Assembly (NCBI GenBank): GCA_016874555.1
Contig: VGTW01000005.1
Location: forward strand, 1 to 52,913
Origin: Gammaproteobacteria bacterium
Lineage (GTDB): Bacteria > Pseudomonadota > Gammaproteobacteria > Steroidobacterales > Steroidobacteraceae
Direction of reading: 5' to 3'
DNA length: 52,913 nt
Under the pieces are notes generated by a model, which made no database searches, was not told the DNA's origin, and worked only from the letters and a program-made list of their open reading frames with translations. Made by a program: the position numbers and the translations under genes. This document shows, piece by piece, positions 31,944 to 41,257 of the stretch. Each line of letters opens with the position of its first letter. Within the stretch, counting starts at the first letter, position 1.

Positions 31944-32141
31944 CTAGCCTTTCGGGGAAAGATTGGAGGGCGGCATAGCGGTACCAGCCTCTCGAATGAT
32001 GACCTTAGTGTTGTCTTCGGGTAGGTAGAGCGCCCCGGTTTGACCGCAGGCTGCGAGTAAGAGTGCGCTCGCGATGACGAGCAATGCTACTCGATAGCGA
32101 AACGCTGATATCAGGTGTAAAACAGCGTGGGACTGGATCAC
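31944..32141 (-). CDS. lptM: LptM/YifL-type small lipoprotein
   Basis: Lipobox LLLAACGQTGALYLPEDN; GTG start inferred. Confidence 0.75.
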   Translation of the reverse strand: MIQSHAVLHLISAFRYRVALLVIASALLLAACGQTGALYLPEDNTKVIIREAGTAMPPSNLSPKG

Positions 32142-32590
32142 GTTGGCAGTGTGCGCGCTTCGCGCAAGGCGAGCCAGCCGCGCAGCACCCGGTAGAGCAC
32201 CCAGATACCGACAAAAAACAGGCCGATGGCCGCGGTCGCGAAGCCGACCAGTACCAGCATCAGCGGTGCCGAAAATAACAGCACCAATACGCTGACGAAA
32301 AAGGCGATCCAGAAGGTGCGGATCTGCCATGAGAAGTGCGACTCGAGCCAGGTGTCGCGCGCTTCGCTGCGACGCGCATAGTTCATGACGACCGCGACGA
32401 TGGAGGGGACACCAAAGATGAAACTGCCCACGATCGTCGCGGCGCCGCTTACGCCGATTAGCACCGAGAGCGCATGTAGTGCGTAGATGACGTGAGTCCA
32501 TGTCACCGTCGAGGGATCAGGAGCGCGGTCAAAGTTGACTATGCCATCCTTTACACGCTGGAGCCGATTTTGTTCCGTAGCCCGCGACAT
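32138..32590 (-). CDS. DUF4870-like membrane protein
   Basis: VTWTHVIYALHALSVLIGVSGAATIVGSFIFGVPSIVAVVMNYARR..., SHFSWQIRTFW. Confidence 0.75.
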   Translation of the reverse strand: MSRATEQNRLQRVKDGIVNFDRAPDPSTVTWTHVIYALHALSVLIGVSGAATIVGSFIFGVPSIVAVVMNYARRSEARDTWLESHFSWQIRTFWIAFFVSVLVLLFSAPLMLVLVGFATAAIGLFFVGIWVLYRVLRGWLALREARTLPT

Positions 32591-32600
32591 ACTGACTGGA

Positions 32601-33038
32601 TTACCGCCGGTTGATGACGGCCATCGTGATGCGCGACACACAGACGAGTTGAGTGCGCGCGTTGTGAATCTCGATGGTCCACACCTGACTGCGGGCGCCG
32701 GCGTGCAGCAAGCAGGCAGTGCCTGTCACGGTTTCGCCTTCGAGTGCAGGTCGCAGGTGGTTAGCGTTGATTTCCTGGCCGACTGCGGTATGAGCTTCGT
32801 CGAGGCAGCAGTTGGCCGCGACGCTCGCGAGCGTCTCGGCCAGGGCCACCGAGGCGCCGCCGTGCAGCATTCGCATCGGCTGACAATTGCGTGCATCCAC
32901 CGGCATGGTACCGCGCAAAAAATCTGCGCCCTTTTCGGTGAACACGATACCGAGCGAGGCCATCATGGTCGCGTGCGAGCGCTCGTTCATCAGTTCAAGC
33001 GTGGCATCCTGACGCCACGGTATTCTTTGACCACTCAC
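32601..33038 (-). CDS. PaaI-like hotdog-fold thioesterase
   Basis: RMLHGGASVALAETLASVAAN, GQEINANHLRPA; GTG start overlapping the argH stop. Confidence 0.88.
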   Translation of the reverse strand: MSGQRIPWRQDATLELMNERSHATMMASLGIVFTEKGADFLRGTMPVDARNCQPMRMLHGGASVALAETLASVAANCCLDEAHTAVGQEINANHLRPALEGETVTGTACLLHAGARSQVWTIEIHNARTQLVCVSRITMAVINRR

Positions 33039-34258
33039 GATGGATCTCTCTCTGACCGATCTGTTTCGGCGCGGTCGGCTGCCAGTACCGCACCGATCCG
33101 CCGATAGGCTTCGCGAAAAGGAATACCCTCGCGGACGACCAGCTCATTCGCGCGCTCGGCGGCGTGGATGGCGGGATCGAGCTCGATGTGCTGCTCGCGA
33201 AACCCCATCGCGTCGATCGCCGGAACCAGAATACCGGTGCTCGCCAGCACGAGATCGATGCCACGAAAAAGCGGTTCCTTTAAAAGTTGCAGGTCGCGCT
33301 GATATCCCGACGGCAGCTTGGCAAAGATGCCGAGCGCTTCGATGAGGCAGCCATGTGCCGAGGCCGTACGACCGCGCAGCAGTTCGAAGACGTCAGGATT
33401 ACGTTTCTGCGGCATGATCGATGAGCCGGTGGTGAATTCGTTCGGCAATTCGAGAAAGGCGAATTCCTGCGTATAAAAAAGACAGACGTCGGCGGCGAAG
33501 CGGCCGAGGTCCTGCATCAGCAGAGCAATCTCGAACAAAAGTTGTGCTTCAGCTTTCCCGCGCGAGAGTTGCACGGCAGTGACGGGTTCGTGCACGACAT
33601 CGAAGTCGAGCGCCGCGCGCGTAGCTTCGCGATCGAGCGGTAAACCCGGCATGCCGTAGCCTGCAGCCGAGCCCAGCGGATTTTTGCCAAGGCGACGCTG
33701 CACGCTGCGCAGACCTGCAGCATCGTCACGCAATTCCGCGGCAAAGCCGCCTGCCCACAGCGCCACCGAACTCGGCATGGCTTGCTGCATATGCGTATAG
33801 CCGGGCAACTCAATTTCCCCCTGCCGTAGTGAGAGTCGATCGAGTGCGGCGGCGACGGTTTCTGCACCGACGGCGAGTTGCTCGGTTACATCGCGCAAAT
33901 AGAGTCGCAGTGCAGTCAGCACCTGATCGTTGCGCGAGCGACCTAGATGCACGCGACCGCCGGCTGCACCAATACTGGCGGTCAGCCGCTTTTCAAGCGC
34001 AGTCTGTCCGTCTTCATCGATAAGTTCGATATGCCACTCGCCTTGTGCGTGCGCGGCAGCGAGGGCCTCGAGCCCGCTCTCGATGGCCTCGCAGTCTGCA
34101 GCCGAGAGCAGACCCTGATCGTGCAGCATTTGCGCATGCGCGATCGATGCGCGAGCGTCGTAAGACACCAGACGTTCGTCAAGTGCGTGATCTTCGCCCG
34201 CTGTGTACGCGAGTACGCGCTCATCGAGCGGTGTGCCTTTATTCCAGAGCTGCGTCAT
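33035..34258 (-). CDS. argH: Argininosuccinate lyase
   Basis: GRVHLGRSRNDQVLTALRL, FTTGSSIMPQKRNPDVFELLRG. Confidence 0.97.
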   Translation of the reverse strand: MTQLWNKGTPLDERVLAYTAGEDHALDERLVSYDARASIAHAQMLHDQGLLSAADCEAIESGLEALAAAHAQGEWHIELIDEDGQTALEKRLTASIGAAGGRVHLGRSRNDQVLTALRLYLRDVTEQLAVGAETVAAALDRLSLRQGEIELPGYTHMQQAMPSSVALWAGGFAAELRDDAAGLRSVQRRLGKNPLGSAAGYGMPGLPLDREATRAALDFDVVHEPVTAVQLSRGKAEAQLLFEIALLMQDLGRFAADVCLFYTQEFAFLELPNEFTTGSSIMPQKRNPDVFELLRGRTASAHGCLIEALGIFAKLPSGYQRDLQLLKEPLFRGIDLVLASTGILVPAIDAMGFREQHIELDPAIHAAERANELVVREGIPFREAYRRIGAVLAADRAETDRSERDPS

Positions 34259-35202
34259 GAGTGTGCTGCGTCAGCCGCAGCGAGCTCCGCCGGCGCGAGC
34301 TTGCCGATATCGGCGACGACCAATGTGCCAGTGCCTTCGTTGGTGAACACCTCGGCGAGGATTGCATCGCTTGCTTTGTACGAGATCACGTGCACTCGTT
34401 TCACCCCGCGCTGAATGGCGCTCTCGATGGCTTTAGCCTTCGGCAGCATGCCATTGACGATGCGCTTTTCGTCGCGCAATCGCTTGAGCCCGGCGAGATC
34501 GGTGTGGGAGATCACCGAGGTCGGATCTTCCACCCGCTCGAGAATACCGGGCGCTCCCGTACAAAGAATCAACTTCTCAGCCCCGAGTGCAGCGCCGATA
34601 GCGGAAGCCACTGTGTCTGCATTGATATTGAGCAACGTGCCCGAGTTGTCACTCGACAGGGGGGAGATGACCGGCATCAGTCCATTGTCGAGCAATTTAT
34701 GGATGACGTCAGTGTCGATGTAATCGATGTCGCCGACAAAGCCGTAATCAATGGTTGCATCGCCGGTTTGTAATTTCACCGGCGCGCGCTTATGGGCTTG
34801 CACCAGCCCTGCATCGACCCCGCTCAGGCCGATCGCCTGGATGTCGAGTTCGCGACAGGTCGCAAGGATGCGCGTGTTGATGAGACCCGAGAGCACCATG
34901 GCCGTGGCATCGATCGAGCGCTCGTCGGTCACGCGCCGGCCTTCGACCATCTGCGTCGGCACGCCGAGTTTCTCGGTGACTTCAGTGAGCTGCGGACCGC
35001 CGCCGTGCACGAACACGACTCGAATACCCAGCGAGTGCAGCACGGCGATTTGTTCGATGAGCGCGCGTGTGGCCTTGGCATCGCCGAACACGCCACCACC
35101 TGCCTTTACCACGAAGGTCTTACCCTTGTAGAGCCGGATGTACGGTGCGGCACTGCGCAGCGCACGAATGACGACTGCAGGGTCGGCTCGGTGCATGATC
35201 AT
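34255..35202 (-). CDS. argB: N-acyl-glutamate kinase (ArgB-like)
   Basis: FVVKAGGGVFGDAK, VFVHGGGPQLTEVTEKLG, LSGVDAGLV, NINADTVASAIGAALGAEKLILCTGAPGIL; ATG at 35202 with GGAGG upstream. Confidence 0.92.
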   Translation of the reverse strand: MIMHRADPAVVIRALRSAAPYIRLYKGKTFVVKAGGGVFGDAKATRALIEQIAVLHSLGIRVVFVHGGGPQLTEVTEKLGVPTQMVEGRRVTDERSIDATAMVLSGLINTRILATCRELDIQAIGLSGVDAGLVQAHKRAPVKLQTGDATIDYGFVGDIDYIDTDVIHKLLDNGLMPVISPLSSDNSGTLLNINADTVASAIGAALGAEKLILCTGAPGILERVEDPTSVISHTDLAGLKRLRDEKRIVNGMLPKAKAIESAIQRGVKRVHVISYKASDAILAEVFTNEGTGTLVVADIGKLAPAELAAADAAHS

Positions 35203-36212
35203 CGTTCGGTTCCTCCATTCGACAGCAGGCGGTACAGGACCGCCATCTGCGCGGGTAGTCGGTTGTAGGCCTCGCGTTGCACGATGCTGCGCGGACCATC
35301 GAGTACTTCGTCGGCAACGGCGACATTGCGGCGTACCGGCAGACAGTGCATGAACTTGCAATCTTTGCTGGCCGAAGCAAACCAGTCTTCGCGCACGCAC
35401 CAATCGGCAAGACCTGCGCGCAGTGCCGCATCGCCAACACTGTCGCCATAGTGCGTGATCGAGCCCCATTCTTTGGCGTAGACGATCTGCGCGCCGGCGA
35501 GTGCCTCGGTACGGTCATTGGTCTCGCGCACGCTACCGCCTGAGGCCGCAGCCGCGACACGTGCCTTGTCCATGGTTTCTGGCGGCAGTGCATAACCCTC
35601 GGGTCGCAGAACCACTACATCCATACCGCGGTGTGCTGCCATGTGCACGGTCGCTGCAGGGACGGCCATTGGCGTGATGCGCGGATGATTTGTCCAGCTG
35701 AGTACGAACTTTGCGCGCTGCGGCACGGTGAGATCTTCAAGTGTCTTCCAATCGGCGAGCGCCTGACAGGGGTGATTGACTGCCGACTCGAGATTGATCA
35801 AAGGCTTGTCGACAACGGCCGACATTGCACGAAAATTAGTCTCGGCGAGATCGTATTTAAGGTCCTTACCTTCAGCGAACGCGCGTATGCCGAGCGCATC
35901 GGCATACGAAGCGAGTATTGGCAAGCCTTCGCGCACGTGCTCTGCCGCCGCGCCATTCATGGTCACGCCGATTCCGCTTTCGAGTTGCCAAGTACCATGT
36001 CCTGGCGTGATCACGAACGAACTGCCGCCGAGTCGCATCATGCCGACCTGGAAAGATGACAGTGTGCGCAGCGAGGGGTTGAACATCACAAGACCGAGGA
36101 TCTTGCCGGCGAGTACGCGCGGCTCCGGATGAGACTCGAGATGACAGGCGAGCGCGATGAGATCGAGGATCTCTTCGCGACTGAAATCGGCAAGGTCAAG
36201 GAAGCGTTTCAT
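35199..36212 (-). CDS. argF': N-acyl-ornithine carbamoyltransferase (AOTCase/SOTCase-like)
   Basis: FNPSLRTLSSFQVG, MNGAAAEHV, NHPCQALADW, FMHCLPVRRNVAVADEV; closer to the acetyl/succinyl-ornithine transcarbamylase type than to canonical ArgF. Confidence 0.88.
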   Translation of the reverse strand: MKRFLDLADFSREEILDLIALACHLESHPEPRVLAGKILGLVMFNPSLRTLSSFQVGMMRLGGSSFVITPGHGTWQLESGIGVTMNGAAAEHVREGLPILASYADALGIRAFAEGKDLKYDLAETNFRAMSAVVDKPLINLESAVNHPCQALADWKTLEDLTVPQRAKFVLSWTNHPRITPMAVPAATVHMAAHRGMDVVVLRPEGYALPPETMDKARVAAAASGGSVRETNDRTEALAGAQIVYAKEWGSITHYGDSVGDAALRAGLADWCVREDWFASASKDCKFMHCLPVRRNVAVADEVLDGPRSIVQREAYNRLPAQMAVLYRLLSNGGTER

Positions 36213-37345
36213 AGGTCGCACAAAGCCTTGCGAAGCAGATCGACATGAGTTTCTTTGAGTGTGTAGGGCGGAAGAAGCCGCAGTACATGCGGATCGGCGC
36301 TGGTGCCGGCGAGAATATTCCGCTCGAGTAGCATCTTTTGAATCTCTTTGGCGGGCTTGGCGGTGATCATGCCGTGCAGAAACCCGGCGCCCTGATGTCC
36401 GGTGACTGGGCCGACGGTGCAGGTATCGCGCAGGTACTTCGACACCCGACGTACGTTTTCGAGCAGGCCCTCGCTTTCGATGGCATCGATCACCGCCTCG
36501 ATGACGGCACAGGACATCGGTCCGCCACCGAACGTGGTACCTAGCCCCTCGAGCTTGATGGCAGCCGTCACGCGCGGCGTCATCAGCAGCGCACCGCAGG
36601 GAAAACCGTTACCGAGCGCTTTGGCGGTCGTGATCATGTCCGGAGTCAAGGCATAGAAATTGGCAGCGAATGGCTGGCCGCTGCGACCGATACCGATTTG
36701 CACTTCGTCGAAGATCAGCAGCGCTCCGACTTCATCGCAGCGCGCGCGTAATGCAGCCAAAAATTCGCGTCCCATGTCGAAGGCGCCACCCACGCCCTGC
36801 ACGGGCTCGACGATCACGGCTGCCGTATTAGTGTCGACCTGTACGGCGATCGCATTAACGTCACGTCGCGGTATCCAGCCGATGTCGAAGGGCGCACGCG
36901 GAAATTCGTACCACTTTTTGTCGGCACCCCAAGTGATAGCACCCGCGGCTGCGGTACGGCCGTGGAATGCACCTTCAACGGCCACGATTTTCGGGCGCTT
37001 GATCATCTTGAATGCCATACGCAGCGCGTTTTCATTAGCCTCGGCGCCGGAATTAACAAAGAACACGCTGTCGAAGGCACCGCCCGCGAAACGCGCAAGT
37101 CGCGTGGCTGCACGCACGCGGACATCCATGGGTACCGCATTGCTCTGAAAATTACAGGCCTCGGCTTGTTGTGCGAGGGCGCGGGTCCAGCCCGCGTGCC
37201 GATAGCCGAGCGCGGCGACCGCGTGGCCCCCGTAGAGATCGAGGATGCGGCGACCGTCGCGGGTATGCAGCCAGACACCTTCCGCATTGATGACCTCGAT
37301 AGGGTGTTGGGCGAACACGGGCGCAAGATGATCGACGGGGCTCAT
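36209..37345 (-). CDS. argD: N-acyl-ornithine aminotransferase
   Basis: Class III aminotransferase; GAFHGRTAAAGAIT, LLIFDEVQIGIGRSG, TTAKALGNGFPCGALL. Confidence 0.94.
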   Translation of the reverse strand: MSPVDHLAPVFAQHPIEVINAEGVWLHTRDGRRILDLYGGHAVAALGYRHAGWTRALAQQAEACNFQSNAVPMDVRVRAATRLARFAGGAFDSVFFVNSGAEANENALRMAFKMIKRPKIVAVEGAFHGRTAAAGAITWGADKKWYEFPRAPFDIGWIPRRDVNAIAVQVDTNTAAVIVEPVQGVGGAFDMGREFLAALRARCDEVGALLIFDEVQIGIGRSGQPFAANFYALTPDMITTAKALGNGFPCGALLMTPRVTAAIKLEGLGTTFGGGPMSCAVIEAVIDAIESEGLLENVRRVSKYLRDTCTVGPVTGHQGAGFLHGMITAKPAKEIQKMLLERNILAGTSADPHVLRLLPPYTLKETHVDLLRKALCDL

Positions 37346-37371
37346 TGATAGTTCTCGAGTGAAAAAGCTGT

Positions 37372-38439
37372 TTAGGTCCAACCGGCGGCCGGTGCAGTTA
37401 GTCCCAGGGTTTCCGGAAAGCCGAGCAGACGATTCATCCACTGCACGGCCCCACCGGCAGCACCCTTGTTGAGGTTATCCACCACGCACATCACTGCGAC
37501 GGTGCGGCCTGTGCTGGTCGCGTGCAGTTGGGCATAGTTACTGGCCACGATATCTTTGACACGCGGCGCACTGTCGATTACTCGTACGAATGGCGCTGCA
37601 GCATAGAACCCGCGCAGCTTTTCGAGCAGCGTTTCGCCGTCAAGGCCTGCATGTGCGGCGGCCAGTGTCGCTTGCGCCGTAACATGAATACCGCGTGCGA
37701 AGGGCCCCGAGTGTGGCACGAAAGCGAAGTCGGCTGTGATGCCGCTCGCCGCAGCGGCACAGGCCGTGATTTCGGGAATGTGCCGATGCACCAGAGCGTT
37801 GTAGGAGTAGAGATCGCTGTGGCGGGTCGGGTGGTGAGTACCATCAACGTGCTTTCGCCCGGAGCCCGTGCTGCCAGTGACACCGCTCACGAATAGCGTT
37901 GGCGTCACGAGACCAAGTGAAAGCAGCGGTACGCTCGCGAGCAGGATCGCGGTGGCGAAGCAACCGGGATGGGCCACATGCGGTGTCGGCGATGTGGCCA
38001 GATGTTCAGGCAGTGCACAGGTAAAATCTTTGAGCCGTCGCGGCGCACCATGCTCGTGCTTGTATACAGTAGCGTAGGCTTCGGCGCTGGAGTAACGATA
38101 ATCCGCGGAGATATCGACGACCCGCGGATGGGTGCCAGCCGACTCGGCGGCTTGCAATAAGCGATCGATCAGTGCGGCACTCACGCCGTGCGGTGCCGCC
38201 GAAAACAGCGCACTGATCGGCAGGCTGGCGATTAGCTTCGTCAGATCGCCCTCGGACAGGAAGCGCAAATCACCGAGTGCGAGCGCGAGGTGCGGAAAAG
38301 CCTTGGCGATCGACTCACCGGGCTGCGAGTCCGACATCACGCCTGCAATCTCGAGCTGCGGATGTGCCGCGACGAGCCGCAGTACTTCACCGGCCACATA
38401 GCCGGTACCGCCCAAGATCAGTGTCGGCACTCGATTCAC
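37372..38439 (-). CDS. argC: N-acyl-gamma-glutamyl-phosphate reductase
   Basis: LILGGTGYVAGEVLRL, HPGCFATAILLASVPL, VSGVTGSTGSGRK. Confidence 0.94.
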   Translation of the reverse strand: MNRVPTLILGGTGYVAGEVLRLVAAHPQLEIAGVMSDSQPGESIAKAFPHLALALGDLRFLSEGDLTKLIASLPISALFSAAPHGVSAALIDRLLQAAESAGTHPRVVDISADYRYSSAEAYATVYKHEHGAPRRLKDFTCALPEHLATSPTPHVAHPGCFATAILLASVPLLSLGLVTPTLFVSGVTGSTGSGRKHVDGTHHPTRHSDLYSYNALVHRHIPEITACAAAASGITADFAFVPHSGPFARGIHVTAQATLAAAHAGLDGETLLEKLRGFYAAAPFVRVIDSAPRVKDIVASNYAQLHATSTGRTVAVMCVVDNLNKGAAGGAVQWMNRLLGFPETLGLTAPAAGWT

Positions 38440-39515
38440 GAGGCAGGCACCACCGGGAAGCGGGTGCCGAGGCCGATCGCATCGATGACGCAGTCGCCGA
38501 GCGACGCCCCATCGGTCAGTGCGTTAAACGCAGGCACTTTCATCTGTTCGCGGATGATGTCGACACCGACGGCGTTGTCTGTAGCCGGACCCGTGACCGC
38601 GCAAGGCTCGACGCTGAAACGTTCGCGCAAAAGTTTGACGCCACCCCAAGCGGCGACCGGATCGTTCGCCGAGAGCACGACACCGGTGAGCGCTTGACGG
38701 ATGTCTGCGCACTCGAGAATTGAATCGACGCCATACGTACCGAGAATGCCATCGCCGAGTTCGAAGACGATGACGTCAGGTTTTTTATTCGCGATCTCGG
38801 TGATCATGGTGCGCGTCAGCGCTGGACCCACTCTACGCGTGGTGGCGATCACACCGAGGTCGGTGAAGATCATCGAATTTCGCGCGCCCGCATCTTCCAT
38901 GGCGAGGATGTCGCGTCGCAGCGAAACACCGGTGGCCTTAAAGCAGTCGACGACGAGACCGCGATGACGCATGCGGCTTACCATCGCGCAGGCGGCCGCG
39001 GTTTTACCGGCTTCCATACAGGTTCCGGCAAGCGCAACCACGGGTATGCCCTGTGAATCGAGAGTCGCACCGAAATCGAGCTTACGATAACCCGCGCGTG
39101 CCGGCACACCGATGCGTTCACCCAGATAAGGGAACGTGAGTACCACGCCGAGGACGCGACAATCGAAAGGTTTGCCCTTGTCAGGGTTCGCCGAGTCGCA
39201 GATCCCGAACACGCCGCCGATGTTGAGCATCTGGATCACATCGCCTGCAGCGAGTTTTTCCGGCACATACCCCGAGTAACCAAAGAGCGCTTTACGGTGG
39301 CCGAGCGCACCGACGACGATATCGCCTTTGTTGACCTTCGCCATTCGCCCACTGGTGAGCTCGAGCGTGTTATAGCCAGCTTTGTTGTTGAGAACCTCGA
39401 CCACGACCACCACGCCTTCCTCCGAGGGCAGGTTATCGGTAGCAATGCGTACTTCTTGACCAAGACCACAGGCTTGGGTGATAGACGCGATCTTGTCGAC
39501 GACGATGGTTCTCAT
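38436..39515 (-). CDS. P-loop (dethiobiotin-synthetase-like / possibly DUF1611-related) protein embedded in the arginine operon
   Basis: VVALAGTCMEAGKTAAACAMVSRM P-loop; ATGA overlaps with argG (stop 39512) and argC (start 38439). Confidence 0.75.
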   Translation of the reverse strand: MRTIVVDKIASITQACGLGQEVRIATDNLPSEEGVVVVVEVLNNKAGYNTLELTSGRMAKVNKGDIVVGALGHRKALFGYSGYVPEKLAAGDVIQMLNIGGVFGICDSANPDKGKPFDCRVLGVVLTFPYLGERIGVPARAGYRKLDFGATLDSQGIPVVALAGTCMEAGKTAAACAMVSRMRHRGLVVDCFKATGVSLRRDILAMEDAGARNSMIFTDLGVIATTRRVGPALTRTMITEIANKKPDVIVFELGDGILGTYGVDSILECADIRQALTGVVLSANDPVAAWGGVKLLRERFSVEPCAVTGPATDNAVGVDIIREQMKVPAFNALTDGASLGDCVIDAIGLGTRFPVVPAS

Positions 39516-40756
39516 TTCTTTCCAGTCCCCTGCGTCTCGTGGTGGCTTGATGCAGCCGCGCGCTCGCCGGCGCGGCGATGGAAAACGCCAGTAAGGCCGA
39601 CGATACGTGAAAATCCCAAAGCGTCGGCTGCGGTCCACTCGCCCGTGGCTTCGCCGTAGACGCCCTTCGATGCAGCCATGAGTGACCACGGCGAGTCGAT
39701 ACCCTCGATGAAGACTGAGCCCGGACGGAACAATACGTTAACCATGCCGGTCACCCGCTGCTGCGACTTCAGGAACAAGGCTTCGATATCGCGGCAGACC
39801 GGATCGAGCAGCTGTCCCTCGTGGACCCAGTCGCCATATGGACCCGCGAGCATTTCTTTGATTCGCTGCTGCCGTGCGGTGAGCACTAGTTTTTCGAGCT
39901 CGCGGTGGGCATTAAGCAGGACTTCGGCGGCAGGTGCTTCGAAGGCCACGCGACCCTTGGTGCCGATGATGGTATCGCCGAGATGGATGCCGCGGCCGAT
40001 ACCGAACGGTCCCGCCAGCGACTCCAGAGTCTCGATAACCTCGACCGGCGACATCGTCTGGCCGTTAAGACCGCAGGGCACACCCCGCTCGAAATGCAGC
40101 ATATGGCGCTCTGCAGGGCGCGGTTTGTTAAAAGCGTCTTTCGAGAGCACCCAGGCGTCGTCGGGAATACTGCCCTGCGAGGTCAGCGTTTCTTTACCGC
40201 CGATGCTCACGCCCCAAAGGCCCCGATTGATCGAGTAAGCGGCGCCGAAGGGCGGCACAGGCAGCTTTCGATTTTGCAAAAACTCGAGTTCTTCCTGGCG
40301 CTTGAAAAGCCGGTCGCGCACCGGTGCAATGACTTCGAGTTCGGGTGCCAGCGTGCGTAGCGCAACCTCGAAGCGCACCTGATCGTTGCCTGCCGCCGTA
40401 CAACCGTGAGCGATGCTACTGGTACCAAGCTCGCGGGCCATCAGCGCAATTTTTTGTGCCTGCATCACGCGCTCGGCACCGACACAGAGCGGATAGAGCT
40501 GGCCACGACGTACGTTGCCCATGATCAGAAAGCGTAGCACCTGTTCAAAGTAATCGGCACGTGCATCGATCCGGTGGTGGGCACTCGCGCCGAGCGCGAG
40601 CGCACGCTCTTCGAGCGTCTGCGCAGAGACGACATCGATACCACCTGTATCCACGGTGACCGTGATGATTGGACGCTGGTATTGCTCCCTCAGCCACGGC
40701 ACGAGAAACGAGGTATCTAAGCCGCCGGAATAGGCGAGAACGATGGGCTGCGACAT
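39512..40756 (-). CDS. argG: Argininosuccinate synthase
   Basis: VLAYSGGLDTSFLVPWL, HGCTAAGNDQVRFE. Confidence 0.95.
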   Translation of the reverse strand: MSQPIVLAYSGGLDTSFLVPWLREQYQRPIITVTVDTGGIDVVSAQTLEERALALGASAHHRIDARADYFEQVLRFLIMGNVRRGQLYPLCVGAERVMQAQKIALMARELGTSSIAHGCTAAGNDQVRFEVALRTLAPELEVIAPVRDRLFKRQEELEFLQNRKLPVPPFGAAYSINRGLWGVSIGGKETLTSQGSIPDDAWVLSKDAFNKPRPAERHMLHFERGVPCGLNGQTMSPVEVIETLESLAGPFGIGRGIHLGDTIIGTKGRVAFEAPAAEVLLNAHRELEKLVLTARQQRIKEMLAGPYGDWVHEGQLLDPVCRDIEALFLKSQQRVTGMVNVLFRPGSVFIEGIDSPWSLMAASKGVYGEATGEWTAADALGFSRIVGLTGVFHRRAGERAAASSHHETQGTGKK

Positions 40757-40780
40757 GGGCAATCCTTGACTGCGAATTCG

Positions 40781-41257
40781 TCAGACGCGGAAGAGTTCGC
40801 GCAGCCGTGCGACCACGATCGCCTGTGCCGTTGCGGTATCGGTGGCAATGAAAATGGTGTCGTCGCCCGAAATGGTGCCGACGATCTCTGGCCAGTCGGC
40901 CTTGTCGATGGCGATCGCCACGCTCTGTGCGGCACCCACCGTGGTGCGCAGTACCGTCAGCGAACTGCCTGCGGTGGCGACACCGCGAACGAACTGGCGC
41001 AGCGTGCCGAAATCATCGTGCGCCCGCTGGTTGGCATCGGGCGGCAGGTAGCGGCCGCCGGCCTTGAGCACCCCGAGATCGCGCAGATCGCGACTGACCG
41101 AGGACTGTGTGACCTCATAACCCTCGTGTTTCAAAAGATCGACGAGCTCGCCCTGACGGCGCACGTCAGCTCTGCGCAGCAGGCGCAGGATTGCGCTTCG
41201 ACGGCCGTTTTGATAGGGGTCGGTCTGCATAAAATTGCGTGTATTTTGCATATTCAT
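40781..41257 (-). CDS. argR: Arginine repressor ArgR (true start may be 41230)
   Basis: Winged helix ...EVTQSSVSRDLRDLGVLKAGGRYLP; C-terminal GDDTIFIATDTATAQAI. Confidence 0.92.
   Translation of the reverse strand: MNMQNTRNFMQTDPYQNGRRSAILRLLRRADVRRQGELVDLLKHEGYEVTQSSVSRDLRDLGVLKAGGRYLPPDANQRAHDDFGTLRQFVRGVATAGSSLTVLRTTVGAAQSVAIAIDKADWPEIVGTISGDDTIFIATDTATAQAIVVARLRELFRV

Follow-up and report, generated by a model that had tools for sequence, protein, structure and literature searches.

The arginine operon

The window, meaning the whole stretch of 52,913 nucleotides analysed here, is contig C5 of a 2.36 Mb genome (87% complete, 219 contigs), and the named genomes closest to it are metagenome-assembled ones, gammaproteobacterial and from Steroidobacteraceae. 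Nine genes lie in it in the predicted order argR-argG-X-argC-argD-argF'-argB-argH-thioesterase, all on the minus strand:

40781..41257, minus: argR, arginine repressor (158 aa); Pfam Arg_repressor and Arg_repressor_C above cut-off
39512..40756, minus: argG, argininosuccinate synthase; TIGR00032, 279.5 bits (cut-off 268.2)
38436..39515, minus: gene X, P-loop protein (359 aa) with Walker A AGTCMEAGKT, candidate N-succinyl- (or N-acyl-) L-glutamate synthase
37372..38439, minus: argC, N-acyl-gamma-glutamyl-phosphate reductase; TIGR01850, 260 bits (cut-off 233.6)
36209..37345, minus: argD, N-acylornithine aminotransferase; Aminotran_3 above cut-off, best TIGR00707 match 299.6 bits, below its cut-off of 410
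35199..36212, minus: argF', N-acylornithine carbamoyltransferase with succinyl-type specificity residues; NF003384, 331 bits (cut-off 288)
34255..35202, minus: argB, monofunctional N-acylglutamate kinase (~315 aa, no NAT domain); TIGR00761, 209 bits (cut-off 151)
33035..34258, minus: argH, argininosuccinate lyase; TIGR00838, 288 bits (cut-off 279.5)
32601..33038, minus: hotdog-fold thioesterase, facultative operon member; TIGR00369, 111.7 bits (cut-off 36.6)

Most junctions had been described as 4-nt overlaps, and six such overlaps are read from the sequence: ATGA at argG/X, argD/argF', argF'/argB and argB/argH, and GTGA at X/argC and argH/thioesterase. Gaps of ~26 nt and ~20 nt separate argC from argD and argR from argG, respectively; argG starts with the ATG at 40756, a longer ORF running from a TTG at 40762. 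The operon contains no argA-type GNAT, argJ or argE, as was also claimed originally. Close behind the thioesterase and in the same orientation comes a small membrane-protein-like ORF (32138-32591, minus strand), which might share the transcript of the arg genes. AF2 modelling of ArgB with no alignment told nothing further (pLDDT 38).

The thioesterase had been assigned to the PaaI type, an assignment that does not hold, as the protein scores 48 bits against a PaaI/PaaD cut-off of 119 and is a generic TIGR00369 hotdog protein whose best NCBIfam matches are MenI/EntH-like, under their cut-offs. Roughly half of the X operons inspected gave no tblastn match to it; it is not a general feature of these operons and was rejected as an essential part of the pathway.

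Gene X encodes a SIMIBI-class P-loop protein

The product of gene X matches no Pfam or NCBIfam family above cut-off and no sequence in the PDB. Its sole Pfam match is to DUF1611 (PF07755), at 15.6 bits against a gathering cut-off of 25 bits (E = 0.011) and over the P-loop only; distant homologues of X score up to 24.4 bits against the same model. With a profile of 22 sequences (X and 21 others, 58–80% identical to it) BioD alone was matched in the PDB, not significantly, and after widening of the profile with distant homologues the match to BioD (3fgn) was significant (E = 2e-4) over the P-loop and the following lysine. All PDB matches to X and its profiles were members of the P-loop superfamily.

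An AF2 model of X built from 52 sequences (mean pLDDT 80.6) is mostly of high confidence in the C-terminal P-loop domain and weaker in the N-terminal region. Its best fold match by Foldseek is BioD (3of5, E = 6.7e-7), with HypB and SRP GTPases also retrieved, and the DUF1611 structure 2obn_B aligns over 238 columns (E = 5.3e-5, TM 0.40), so that a fold shared with DUF1611 is possible, the N-terminal part of the model being less confident. Because the Walker A GKT, K193, D202, D219 and E252 are invariant across 17 diverse family members, X appears to be an active enzyme that binds NTP or CoA. On the strength of the profile, the matches of the predicted fold and these invariant residues, X can be placed among the SIMIBI-class P-loop proteins, as a relative of BioD and DUF1611. 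The original prediction of a BioD/DUF1611-like P-loop is thus sustained at the level of the superfamily, by profile and Foldseek, but not as formal membership of DUF1611, for which X falls below the Pfam cut-off.

The resemblance to BioD does not extend to function or context. BioD, of ~220 aa, serves biotin synthesis as an ATP-dependent carboxylase, whereas X has an additional N-terminal beta-rich region, no BioD family match in Pfam or NCBIfam and no biotin-operon context. The same genome has a separate biotin locus with its own BioD, and its only DUF1611 match is BioD. A BioD paralogue serving biotin synthesis was rejected, since neither the context nor the family models fit. X likewise has neither domain of a classical ArgA (TIGR01890; amino-acid kinase plus GNAT), and a scan of viral_contigs retrieved no relative of X.

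X keeps company with argC and argB

Across related X loci the order argR-argG-X-argC-argD-argF'-argB-argH hardly varies, and because argR-argG-X-argC-argD recurs in nearly all of them the arrangement is not due to chance. In rearranged operons X keeps its place beside argC and argB: in one split operon (L132) X-argC-argB form one unit opposite argR-argG-argF'-argH, and a genome from another class of the phylum (G580) has a minimal argR-X-argC-argB cluster (L193:6089-9739; 55–69% identity to the window), probably acquired by horizontal transfer. The gene thus moves together with those for steps 2 and 3.

X and the Xanthomonas-type NAGS/kinase exclude each other

The distribution of X was surveyed in 60 related genomes and in 296 genomes of the order, mainly metagenome-assembled genomes, several of the X genomes being listed as 100% complete (e.g. 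G006, G025, G036, G052 and G059). Orthologues of X (at least 59% identity) are present in 47 of the 60 relatives, and an acyl-ornithine carbamoyltransferase scores over cut-off in 56. These 56 divide into 47 with X and nine with a Xanthomonas-type NAGS/kinase (NAGS/K), detected by the PF04768 NAT domain on ArgB; none has both and none has neither. The co-occurrence of X with argF', singled out for survey in the original prediction, is thus complete among the 60 (47/47). Across the 296 genomes, X was found in ~238 (251 matches minus 13 weak ones, read by eye) and the NAT domain of NAGS/K in 22, with an overlap of zero, for which the hypergeometric chance would be 6e-18 if the genomes were independent, which they are not. 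Family f7 holds both solutions, with NAGS/K operons in two genera (L150, L151) of what is otherwise a family with X. Neither an X orthologue nor NAGS/K is present in some 36 genomes of the order, several of them from genus g63 of family f7; these are either arginine auxotrophs, incomplete genomes or carriers of yet another synthase.

The Xanthomonas-type acetylated pathway resembles the X operon in carbamoylating N-acyl-ornithine and in occurring in the same order, but differs in that its ArgB carries a fused NAT domain, its operon includes argE', its ArgF' has E/N/K residues and its genes follow another order. The exclusion therefore holds between two whole operons, which differ throughout, and since X-linked and NAGS/K-linked ArgF' also form two deep clades, the switches between the two systems are operon replacements, few in number.

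The search for other step-1 synthases covered ArgJ, TIGR01890 and PF04768. The genome search for argA and argJ suggested earlier retrieved neither over cut-off among the 60 relatives: ArgJ was absent from all 60, on which ground an ArgJ cycle was rejected, and no ArgA-type NAGS scored over the TIGR01890 cut-off. In the window's genome PF04768 has no match and ArgB is kinase-only, so the genome lacks a Xanthomonas-type NAGS/K as defined here. Sub-cut-off matches to TIGR01890 were ArgB kinase domains and weak GNATs. The main rival to a catalytic X is accordingly an unlinked GNAT, similar to ArgA2, S-NAGS or C-NAGS, that performs step 1 while X acts, for example, as a regulatory NTPase or a metabolite-channelling partner. 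GNATs are numerous, the search for GNAT-type synthases was through the TIGR01890 model, and the Bacteroidetes do pair the GNAT ArgA2 with SOTCase (PMC9026213). However, just 7 of the 47 X genomes have a weak GNAT match to the NAGS model, and the strict tie of X to this operon type and to argC-argB would be left unexplained, so that we consider such a division of labour unlikely.

The carbamoyltransferase points to succinylated intermediates

Acetyl- and succinyl-ornithine carbamoyltransferases (AOTCase and SOTCase) are distinguished by Glu92/Asn185/Lys302 versus A/S/P/V/Q, P and V/I/E, and an Ala at position 92 reportedly confers a preference for succinyl (PMC4581275); GapMind uses the first of the three residues, position 92, on Bacteroidetes genomes. 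Alignment to AOTCase 3kzc places A/P/A at the corresponding X. campestris positions of the window's ArgF', which passes the AOTCase model NF003384 despite these succinyl-type residues. Among 83 X-linked ArgF' sequences, some of them overlapping fetches of the same genome, 74 have A/P/A and nine A/P/V, and among 15 linked to NAGS/K, 14 have E/N/K and one E/N/Q. Positions 92 and 185 are thus of the SOTCase type in every X-linked sequence, while position 302 is V in nine and A, a residue outside the V/I/E rule, in 74, and never the Lys of AOTCase. On the simplest view of these residues, the intermediates of X operons are succinylated, as in the Bacteroidetes, and since X-linked ArgF' carry a SOTCase-type signature, X would best be read as an N-succinyl-L-glutamate synthase.

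The choice between acetyl and succinyl left by the original prediction is narrowed to succinyl by these residues. That X is instead an N-acetylglutamate synthase similar to DgcN, with a misleading ArgF' signature, would agree with the score of ArgF' over the AOTCase model and with DgcN, the nearest functional analogue, being an acetyltransferase (PMC11747546). Glu92, Asn185 and Lys302 are however absent from all 83 X-linked ArgF', the Ala found in place of Glu92 is the residue reported as succinyl-preferring, and no argE' orthologue accompanies X; the acetyl reading is accordingly improbable, and the succinyl reading is favoured over it.

The deacylase and the wider X family

A gene argE' is present in nearly all NAGS/K operons and has no orthologue in X genomes, where its best matches are mostly ~27–35% identical. 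X operons being without argE', the deacylase is also missing from them, which could suggest that X acts late, either as this deacylase or by transferring the acyl group. Such a role is very improbable, as X remains with the early-step genes argC-argB in rearranged operons and we know of no P-loop SIMIBI fold acting as a hydrolase of N-acyl amino acids. M20 hydrolases, a family of enzymes removing N-acyl groups, were listed in full for three X genomes besides that of the window (G013, G016 and G041); the ArgE/DapE-type protein common to the three is a true DapE, and G041 has a second, unassigned one. DapE may serve as desuccinylase for N-succinyl-diaminopimelate and N-succinyl-citrulline alike.

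M20 hydrolases also occur beside more distant relatives of X. A paralogue of X (~30% identity), an M20 hydrolase and a flavin-reductase-like protein form a conserved trio in at least six genomes (L143:6194-9035, L144:5824-8661, L145:751-3571, L146:7399-10246, L149:5242-8106 and L194:6133-8967), which appears to be an uncharacterised cluster of acylation/deacylation type. A distant homologue lies in a phosphonate-type cluster on the Priestia megaterium KF18 plasmid NZ_CP085446.1 (L185:1700-10388), together with an ornithine carbamoyltransferase, a PEP mutase family protein, a TPP enzyme pair, two ATP-grasp proteins, an M20 hydrolase and an LLM oxidoreductase. An N-acylation role for the X family fits with these M20 neighbours, and with DgcN. 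On Sulfitobacter and Paracoccus plasmids (L184:4839-7609, L186:4848-7486), a DUF1611-annotated relative of X is directly followed by an ABC transporter ATP-binding protein.

A proposed succinylated arginine pathway

In the proposed pathway, X would acylate the alpha-amino group of L-glutamate, most likely with succinyl from succinyl-CoA, and would do so with a P-loop fold of the BioD/DUF1611 type in place of that of a GNAT or ArgJ. ArgB, ArgC and ArgD would then take N-succinyl-glutamate to N-succinyl-ornithine, from which the SOTCase-type ArgF' would make N-succinyl-citrulline, and a deacylase encoded outside the operon, with DapE as candidate, would release citrulline for ArgG and ArgH. We infer the reaction of X, the acyl group, its donor and the deacylase; gene content, synteny, exclusion, residue signature and fold class were computed. 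The original proposal that X is the missing N-acyl-glutamate synthase gains considerable support, though only as a prediction from genomes, in that X excludes NAGS/K without exception, stays by argC-argB and occurs where no ArgJ or ArgA-type synthase was found over cut-off. We give the whole reading, X as step 1 of a succinylated pathway, a probability of roughly 0.6, and that X catalyses step 1 at all, by succinylation or acetylation, is likelier still. Alternatively, X might be a SIMIBI/BioD-class ATP-dependent amide ligase joining L-glutamate to free succinate (or to some other acid) with no need of CoA, with DapE serving both lysine and arginine synthesis; this is a speculative possibility, which we hold to be rather unlikely, and if true, the chemistry of protecting the amino group would be new to the arginine pathway.

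The succinylated pathway proposed here shares with that of the Bacteroidetes the SOTCase-type residues, a monofunctional ArgB and the need for two further enzymes, one to succinylate glutamate and one to desuccinylate N-succinylcitrulline. According to a 2015 review, no enzyme that succinylates glutamate was then known (PMC4490483), and step 1 in the Bacteroidetes has been assigned to the GNAT protein ArgA2/BT3761 (PMC9026213), whereas in these Pseudomonadota a P-loop protein is the one candidate that emerged. DgcN, a D-glutamate N-acetyltransferase (EC 2.3.1.312; PMC11747546), resembles the proposed X in N-acylating glutamate, but functions in D-glutamate catabolism with a racemase partner, while X lies in arginine operons and below the DUF1611 cut-off. 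By sequence, as compared through DUF1611, X is far from DgcN. Like X, DgcN belongs to the BioD/DUF1611 P-loop superfamily.

If the assignment is true, step 1 of arginine synthesis would be filled for an order-level group of Pseudomonadota, whose X genomes would otherwise score as missing it, and an unannotated P-loop family would gain a function. X would then stand outside the described glutamate N-acylating classes found (ArgA, ArgJ, S-NAGS, C-NAGS, ArgO, NAGS/K, ArgA2, ArgA3 and LysW/ArgX), and succinylated arginine synthesis would reach beyond the Bacteroidetes.
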